Source of the DNA: Nitrospinota bacterium
Lineage (GTDB): Bacteria; Nitrospinota; Nitrospinia; UBA9942; JAHJSF01
Reading direction: 5' to 3'
Length of the DNA: 42,428 bases
NCBI GenBank assembly: GCA_018830405.1
Contig: JAHJSF010000046.1
Span: 1-42,428, forward strand
Below the pieces are notes generated by a model that had not been told where the DNA came from, did no database searches, and saw nothing but the letters and a program-made list of their open reading frames with translations. Within the stretch, counting starts at the first letter, position 1, and every line of letters begins with the position of its first letter. Below, piece by piece: positions 39,232-41,550 of this stretch. The position numbers were made by a program, and so were the translations under genes.

Positions 39232-40530
39232 TCAGACCGGATAGGCCCGAAGGGTGTTGTAATAGCCGCATGACGGGCATTCGCTAACCCACTCAGACTC
39301 TTCATGTCCGCAGTTGGAACACTTATGACGGGTAAGTTCTTTAGCCCCCGCCTTGAAGGCAAGATGACCGGCCTTTTGGCTCTCACCTTCCTTGCCTATC
39401 ATTTTGTAGCCTATGGACATTAGGAGGTGCAGAGACGTATGTGAGGGAAGTTTTTCCCTGGCCTTGGCCAGTTCGGCCAATCCCTCTTCCCCTCTCTCTT
39501 TCCTGATATACAATTCTCCGAGGAGAAGGTGCAGGTGTGGCGAGTCGGGGTTGACCGATATTCCCCAACGGTAGGCATCAAATGTGGCCTCGTCATCCCC
39601 GCTTAGCTGATAGAGGTCTATGAGATGCTTTAGAATGATAAATTCCTTGGTTGTTTTATAACCGGTCTCCCATATCTTTACCGCATCCTTTATCCTCTCT
39701 CCAGCGAGATAGGCATTGCCTATGTCTATGTAGGCAGGGACAAATTTTGGATTATCTTTTAATATCTCCTGCAGGCAGGAGATCACCTTTCTGTCTTCCC
39801 CCTTATCTATAAGATCAAGCCCCCTTTTATATTTCAGGATTAGAAGTTCATTGATCTCCTTTTGGTGGTTTGGGGTCTTCTTTTGCAGGGATATAAGTTG
39901 CCGCTGAACATCAATGGCCTTGTCCCATTCCCTCTTCTTGATATATATCCCCCTCATTTTTTCAAAGGGTTTTGGATTTCGCGGGTTTAGAGAGGTCATT
40001 TTTTTGATTATGCCCAAGGCCTCACCAAGTCTCTCGTCAGCTATAAAGTCTTCAAACAGGTTGTAGAGTATCTCGACGTTGTTTGGGTCTATCCTCATAC
40101 CCTTGGCATGATACTTTATCGCCTCTCCTATCTTTCCCTCTTCTCTTTTTATTTTTCCGAGAAGATTAAGAGTATGTACATGATTGGGGGTCTTTGACAG
40201 CAATTTGGTCAGGATATCAACCGCCTCGTTTCTGTTGCCTGACAAGTAGATTGAGTTTCCTCGGTTATAGAGTTCCTCTGCCCGCTCGTCACTCCTTTTC
40301 TTAAACTCCTTGATAAGGTTCTTGATATAGGCGATAAATCTCCTATAGCCATCGGCAATTAATATAATAATAACCCCCAGAAGTATGGAGGAGAGGATAA
40401 GAATAGCAATAGGGACCTCTATCGAAAGATTGTTAGATAGATGGAGCGTTACTACGGTCCAATTAAAATAGGATATATAAAGGGAGAAGGCTGAAATAGC
40501 CAGCAAGACTAAAAAAGTAAACAGACCCAT
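39232..40530 (-). CDS. LapA-LapB fusion: membrane-anchored TPR protein with zinc ribbon
   Basis: A 432-residue protein. Two N-terminal membrane helices (LVLLAISAFSLYISYFNWTV and PIAILILSSILLGVIIILI) bracket a short segment, VVTLHLSNNLSIEVP, in the style of the LapA/DUF1049 domain. About ten TPR units follow (~85-400). The end carries a rubredoxin-like knot, CSNCGHEESEWVSECPSCG (CxxC...CxxC), diagnostic of LapB/YciM. LapB tunes LPS synthesis through LpxC turnover in E. coli; a similar role is inferred here. In enterics LapA and LapB are separate adjacent genes, so this is a natural fusion. GAAGGA upstream supports the ATG, 4 bases after the rsfS stop. Confidence 0.85.
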   Translation of the reverse strand: MGLFTFLVLLAISAFSLYISYFNWTVVTLHLSNNLSIEVPIAILILSSILLGVIIILIADGYRRFIAYIKNLIKEFKKRSDERAEELYNRGNSIYLSGNRNEAVDILTKLLSKTPNHVHTLNLLGKIKREEGKIGEAIKYHAKGMRIDPNNVEILYNLFEDFIADERLGEALGIIKKMTSLNPRNPKPFEKMRGIYIKKREWDKAIDVQRQLISLQKKTPNHQKEINELLILKYKRGLDLIDKGEDRKVISCLQEILKDNPKFVPAYIDIGNAYLAGERIKDAVKIWETGYKTTKEFIILKHLIDLYQLSGDDEATFDAYRWGISVNPDSPHLHLLLGELYIRKERGEEGLAELAKAREKLPSHTSLHLLMSIGYKMIGKEGESQKAGHLAFKAGAKELTRHKCSNCGHEESEWVSECPSCGYYNTLRAYPV

Positions 40531-40534
40531 GATT

Positions 40535-40888
40535 TTATCCTTCGTTAACAGTTAACCTCGGGGCATCCCCCCAGAGTCTCTCCAGATCGTAATATTCTCT
40601 AGTTTCCTGATTGAATACATGTACAACCAGATCTCCAAAGTCGAGGAGGATCCAATATTGCCCATTAGCCCCCTCCCGATGATAATTCTTGACCCCTATT
40701 TTTCTTAGGCGGTCTTCTATTTCATCTGCAATGGCGCTGATTTGTGTAGTTGATGATCCACTGCAGATCATAAAGTAATCAGCTATACTCGATATCTTGC
40801 TTATATCGAGACAGATGATGTCAATTGCCTTTTTATCGGCGGCTGCCGCAACGGCAATCTTTGTTTTTTCTATTGTGTCTATTTTAAT
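40535..40888 (-). CDS. rsfS: Ribosomal silencing factor RsfS, apparent AUU start
   Basis: Binds ribosomal protein uL14 and blocks subunit joining during nutrient stress. The core is SSIADYFMICSGSS, then YWILLDFGDLVVHVFNQETR and YDLERLWGDAP, unmistakably RsfS. The only in-frame ATG (40771) would remove the first ~39 conserved residues. The frame is open further up with no ATG, GTG or TTG to the TAA above. ATT at 40888 follows GAGG by seven bases and gives 117 residues, the family length (lead IKIDTIEKTKIAVAAAADKK). An ATG at 40895 is out of frame by one base because of a GGGG run. Start is therefore uncertain; the gene is certain. Confidence 0.85.
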   Translation of the reverse strand: MKIDTIEKTKIAVAAAADKKAIDIICLDISKISSIADYFMICSGSSTTQISAIADEIEDRLRKIGVKNYHREGANGQYWILLDFGDLVVHVFNQETREYYDLERLWGDAPRLTVNEG

Positions 40889-40920
40889 TCCCCATCCTCG
40901 TAATGATAGCGTTTATCTGT

Positions 40921-41550
40921 TTACCTATTATAGCCGTAGAGACTATTTTTGGCGATATAATCTTCTACTTTTTGCGGAAGTAAGTAGTTTGTAACCAGTC
41001 CTCCACCAATCTTTTTCCTTATCTTGGTTGAGGAGATGTCAAGCAGTGTCGTTTTAATTATATATACCTTAAACGGTGACCCGCCCATTGTTATGGTACT
41101 ATCTATACTCTTTGTCTTAAGGTATCCTTCAATATCGGACACAGAGTCTTCTCCTCTAAGGTCGACAACGAAATTACATTCTTTAAACAATTGTTCCGTA
41201 TCCTTCCAGGTCCAAATATCGGCCAAGGCATCGGAACCAATTATAAAGAATATCTCGCAATCTTCTCCTCTTAGGCCCTTAAATTCTCTGATGGTATCTA
41301 TGGTGTATGATATGCCTCCCCGAACAATCTCCATATCGGAGACACTAAATAGGGGGTTATCTTCGGTGGCCAAGCGGCACATGGTTAACCTGTCGGCCGA
41401 TGAAACAAGCTCTCCTCTCTTGTGAGGAGGGGAGGAGGAGGGGATTATAACCACCTCCTCCAGGGCATATTCCTCGGCTATCTCTTGGGCGGCATTCAGG
41501 TGTCCCAAGTGTATCGGGTCAAATGTCCCCCCTATGATGCCGACTTTCAT
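40921..41550 (-). CDS. nadD: Nicotinate-nucleotide adenylyltransferase
   Basis: Adenylates nicotinate mononucleotide in NAD synthesis. The nucleotidyltransferase signature GGTFDPIHLGHLNAAQE is near the N-terminus, PPHKRG is the next conserved block and ISSTKIRKKI is the C-terminal ISSTxIR motif. About 209 residues. The ATG at 41550 has GGGAG upstream in the end of proA; a TTG one codon earlier is ignored. The proA-nadD-rsfS order is common in many bacteria, and spacing suggests one transcript, with rsfS 32 bp downstream. Confidence 0.95.
   Translation of the reverse strand: MKVGIIGGTFDPIHLGHLNAAQEIAEEYALEEVVIIPSSSPPHKRGELVSSADRLTMCRLATEDNPLFSVSDMEIVRGGISYTIDTIREFKGLRGEDCEIFFIIGSDALADIWTWKDTEQLFKECNFVVDLRGEDSVSDIEGYLKTKSIDSTITMGGSPFKVYIIKTTLLDISSTKIRKKIGGGLVTNYLLPQKVEDYIAKNSLYGYNR

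Follow-up and report, generated by a model that had tools for sequence, protein, structure and literature searches.

The rsfS gene lies on the minus strand of a 42,428-nucleotide contig from a Nitrospinota bacterium (hereafter, the window), between nadD and a gene for a LapB-like protein (Table 1). A scan of the minus strand finds no ATG, GTG or TTG in the rsfS frame between the TAA at 40913-40915 and the ATG at 40771. The leader comprises GAGG (40899-40896), ATGGGGA and ATT (40888-40886), with 7 nt separating GAGG from ATT, and the protein read from ATT has 117 residues. The ATG at 40895-40893, which shares one G with the GGGG run at 40893-40890, is out of the rsfS frame and reads ATG GGG AAT TAA. 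The original prediction, made from the letters alone, had claimed that the frame lacks the three canonical codons upstream of 40771 as far as the TAA, that ATT at 40888 sits seven bases past GAGG, and that the RsfS N-terminus is encoded upstream of 40771. Each of these claims held when the coordinates were checked on the minus strand and the product was compared with family profiles.

Table 1. Features of the rsfS region (window positions)
Feature	Position	Strand	Basis or remark
rsfS coding frame, 117 aa, from proposed AUU start to stop	40535..40888	minus	PF02410, TIGR00090, solved homologues
ATT, proposed AUU initiation codon	40886..40888	minus	7 nt past GAGG; Shine-Dalgarno duplex
GAGG, Shine-Dalgarno core	40896..40899	minus	sequence, duplex scan
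Out-of-frame ATG GGG AAT TAA, directly past the Shine-Dalgarno core	40884..40895	minus	sequence; decoy ATG of the indel hypothesis
In-frame TAA, upstream bound of the rsfS frame	40913..40915	minus	sequence
First in-frame ATG, internal Met40 of RsfS	40769..40771	minus	not plausible as start
nadD, nicotinate-nucleotide adenylyltransferase, upstream gene	40921..41550	minus	NF000840, E 5e-61
LapB-like TPR / zinc-ribbon protein, downstream gene	39232..40530	minus	profile matches

The 117-residue product matches PF02410 from residue 11 (E 2e-35; 121.4 bits, with a cut-off of 21.6) and the NCBIfam model TIGR00090 from residue 10 (E 5e-35; 119.5 bits, with a cut-off of 56.9). Alignments with solved RsfS structures begin at residues 5-7 (2o5a, E 8e-28; 4wcw, E 2e-26). 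Whole-domain matches over curated cut-offs, together with similarity to solved structures, establish membership in the RsfS / YbeB / iojap family. Because the profiles match from residues 10-11 and the structures from residues 5-7, the start must be near the ATT.

A duplex scan, in which the anti-Shine-Dalgarno (SD) sequence was assumed because none of these assemblies yielded the 3' end of the 16S rRNA, gives the AUU a best SD duplex of ~-8.5 kcal/mol at normal spacing. The corresponding values are about -5.3 kcal/mol for the ATG at 40895, where GAGG touches the ATG (spacing 0), and only -2.5 kcal/mol for the ATG at 40771. By itself, a stretch of nine upstream codons free of the three canonical ones is not improbable. 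The weight comes from the presence of a conserved gene that needs a start there, and from relatives that are also without one. The window's rsfS is without an ordinary start codon and most likely begins at AUU, an assignment that we regard as likely in the absence of reads, ribosome profiling or peptides.

rsfS starts within the order and phylum

The order comparison covers six other genomes, which belong to a different family and to four genera; the window's own family is represented by one genome only. A CTG is found near the window's start position, in one aligned column, in all six relatives. Three codons later comes a conserved GAT AAG, and upstream of the CTG lies AAGGAG, GGAGG or AGGGGTGA. 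No ATG, GTG or TTG occurs before the conserved domain in 4/6 relatives. In one of the remaining two (G004), an ATG lies two codons before the CTG, but is only 1 nt past GGAGG, whereas the CTG is 7 nt past it; in the other (G002), a GTG precedes the CTG by four codons. Elsewhere in the phylum, outside the order, ATG is present in 58 of 59 distinct rsfS start regions. Since most relatives in the order lack a canonical start and nearly all of the rest of the phylum has ATG, the loss is a property of the order, not a one-off sequencing slip, and is specific to this lineage. The outcome that would have refuted the original prediction, namely that close relatives all have an in-frame ATG, does not occur within the order, although the remainder of the phylum fits it.

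An infC-like start would combine the absence of a canonical in-frame codon, an SD sequence at normal spacing to a non-AUG codon, and conservation of a non-AUG start in relatives. The window's rsfS shows the former two, and the last is met through the CTG, because the exact AUU is not shared. The window's AUU is not exactly aligned with the relatives' CUG, and the N-terminus of the window's protein extends two residues further. With a single genome in the window's family, the AUU itself is seen only once. The sole ATG-less rsfS examined outside the order but within the phylum (locus L200, genome G043) has ATT in its relatives' ATG column and TTG four codons on.

An all-against-all control of open reading frames was swamped by antisense frames, and was replaced by controls using conserved starts and neighboring genes. 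Among 153 conserved gene starts in the order, a canonical codon is convincingly missing only from rsfS (five of seven genomes, counting the window's) and proB (three). rsfS escaped the flag in G004 and G002, the two genomes with the extra upstream ATG or GTG. The rsfS neighbor nadD has no canonical codon in only 3/144 loci, two of which adjoin runs of N. The positive control, infC, has none in 20/28 loci/genomes of the same phylum, where mostly ATT, ATA or ATC is found. rsfS is not the only gene with the trait, given proB in the window's order and nadD in a Nitrospirae family.

Several other flags were rejected. Those for rplX among the 153 starts reflect alignment overextension, and a flagged response regulator in G006 has a sequence containing an N. 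The rplW gene flagged in G004 (L214, G004:C82) appears to be missing its N-terminal part in frame, probably through an assembly frameshift.

Two further observations concern neighboring or related genes. The window genome's own infC (L145, G000:C173) appears to start at TTG, whereas most of the phylum uses ATT, ATA or ATC, so rsfS and infC have opposite start habits in this genome. The proB genes of three same-order relatives (L205, L206 and L208), located near rsfS, have no ATG, GTG or TTG before the conserved N-terminus; L205 has an ATT after AAGGAG-AAAGAT.

Probable non-AUG rsfS starts in other lineages

A scan of genome contigs gave further rsfS genes without canonical starts, of which three were followed to their kin. 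The first kin group lies in the Dehalococcoidia (Chloroflexota), reached from UBA10535. The start column there is CTG in 25 of 26 family members and ATG in one; across 114 loci of the class, it is CTG in 82, TTG in 8 and ATG in 1, with the rest unaligned or other. No usable canonical start is present for rsfS in 48/110 Dehalococcoidia cases, versus 4/159 for neighboring genes (Fisher p ~8e-18, ignoring relatedness). These tests count related genomes, so the p-values overstate independence. An SD core is found upstream of 75/78 start CTGs versus 69/268 internal ones, and CTG makes up only 36% of leucine codons inside Dehalococcoidia rsfS genes. The class-wide CTG is therefore not ordinary leucine coding. 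Its retention throughout the class, though a single mutation would give ATG, GTG or TTG, implies together with the rsfS enrichment that there has been selection for weakness.

The rsfS start region of an Acidimicrobiia family shows a conserved GAGAGG-TA-ATC-ATC and lacks canonical codons in 5/7 members; the other two have TTG. An AUC start is suggested for L349-L353 of this family, with TAC in place of TAATC in L351. In a Nitrospirae family, most members have ATT in the probable rsfS start column, two have ATG, and others have ATC or ATA. This column is less certain, as many members have GTG codons just upstream. Several nadD genes of the same family (among L245, L246, L247, L253, L255, L259 and L260) have no canonical start before GGTFNPIH, and it is possible that non-canonical starts are common in this lineage. 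Because nadD is often non-canonical too, the Nitrospirae family gives no evidence for rsfS specificity. Many Acidobacteria loci (for example, L042 and L059) have a GTG start for rsfS in a conserved CCGGTGA context, perhaps overlapping the stop codon of the upstream gene.

By sequence, then, the absence of a canonical start, a conserved position with an SD sequence, and enrichment for rsfS are shown in the window's order and in the Dehalococcoidia. The AUU described here, with the CUG of the same order and of the Dehalococcoidia, suggests that rsfS repeatedly adopts weak start codons. We found no report of conserved non-AUG rsfS starts in the open-access literature that we searched, a scope that leaves out most subscription journals, and the sole rsfS start codon given in the papers that we read is the UUG of Escherichia coli. 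What appears to be new is the conserved CUG rsfS start across a class, with its parallel cases; infC-like non-AUG starts were already known.

Alternative explanations

An assembly or sequencing error could account for the window's gene if the run is really three Gs long and the ATG at 40895 is the start of rsfS. This ATG is just upstream and comes into frame once one G is removed, and the rest of the phylum has ATG starts. The geometry, which was part of the original prediction, is correct, but the ATG would abut GAGG with a spacing of 0, and no better SD sequence lies upstream. Same-order relatives are also without a usable ATG and have CTG, and the remaining rsfS frame is intact. A run of four Gs is too short to be error-prone with short reads; the platform used here is unknown. 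Between the two options that had been put forward, an AUU start or a homopolymer indel, SD strength and spacing and the same-order relatives favor AUU. The indel is thus unlikely, but cannot be excluded for a single assembly. A minor rival, also unlikely, places the start at AUA (40882-40880), two codons downstream of the AUU. Counting back from the conserved DKKA motif, this codon occupies the same column as the sister family's CTG. However, it is 13 nt from GAGG and has nearer to it only a weak GGGGA, whereas the AUU is at the standard 7-nt spacing. Very unlikely is a truncated or decaying gene that starts at the ATG at 40771. Although this is the first canonical in-frame start, its use would drop 39 residues that belong to the conserved domain and to the solved structures; moreover, it has no SD sequence, and the frame upstream of it is open and conserved.

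The rival that is hardest to dismiss accepts the non-AUG start as real but holds that it serves merely to lower expression, or arose by drift, a strong SD sequence being enough, without any feedback specific to RsfS. In its favor, canonical starts are also missing from proB within the order and from nadD in the Nitrospirae family, and in Staphylococcus a non-canonical start lowers expression to roughly 10%, with no factor-specific loop shown (PMC13009471). Against it, the class-wide CTG of the Dehalococcoidia and the strong enrichment of rsfS over its neighbors imply selection for weakness. On balance, we lean slightly away from this view.

A weak start codon as a possible regulatory element

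The explanation that we prefer is that the AUU at 40888-40886 would be read by the initiator tRNA, with the well-placed SD sequence compensating for the weak codon. The window's rsfS would then be one case of recurrent non-AUG rsfS starts, which include CUG in the sister family and the Dehalococcoidia, AUC in the Acidimicrobiia family and AUU in the Nitrospirae family. We consider this explanation as a whole likely, although its low expression and feedback are inferred. The most likely reading, itself an inference, is that a weak start, offset by the SD sequence, keeps rsfS expression low. The weak codon would keep RsfS scarce, and would also render the rsfS mRNA unusually responsive to the condition of the initiation machinery.

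RsfS binds uL14 and is an anti-association factor, possibly acting at the 50S-joining step of initiation (PMC7125091), and initiation complexes formed on CUG have lower stability than those on AUG, GUG or UUG (PMC11497404). By binding uL14 on the 50S subunit and blocking its joining to 30S complexes, RsfS in excess may affect its own weak initiation complexes before others. The result would be negative feedback that mirrors that of IF3 on infC. This feedback is inferred by analogy with IF3 and infC; autoregulation and uL14 binding are untested here. A bolder reading, which is no more than possible, is that rsfS joins infC as a recurring, selectively maintained non-AUG gene in several phyla, and that RsfS autoregulates. 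The step that RsfS most readily blocks would then be 50S joining to non-AUG initiation complexes.

The textbook non-AUG gene is infC, which encodes IF3, has an AUU or AUA start and is under autogenous control. Like infC, the window's rsfS combines a non-AUG start and a good SD sequence with a product that prevents ribosomal subunits from associating. Unlike IF3, RsfS has the 50S subunit as its target, and it is not known to check the start codon; feedback has yet to be demonstrated, and CUG and AUC are among the non-AUG codons of rsfS. The E. coli rsfS (ybeB) is the same gene and also has a weak start codon, the minor start UUG (PMC10917681), but UUG is within the accepted bacterial starts, whereas the window's rsfS has no accepted start in frame. 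The Staphylococcus genes cvfC1 (AUU), ccpN (AUA) and infC (AUA) similarly have conserved non-canonical starts aided by strong SD sequences (PMC13009471). However, these are other genes, and their starts have been shown experimentally, through ribosome profiling and, in the case of cvfC1 and ccpN, reporters.

Conserved CUG, AUC or AUU starts are rare in bacteria, and gene callers that accept only ATG, GTG and TTG miss them. Many genome annotations therefore probably show a falsely truncated rsfS. The class-wide CUG start of rsfS yields a testable hypothesis, that IF3, acting on the 30S subunit, and RsfS, acting on the 50S subunit, may both limit themselves through poor start codons.
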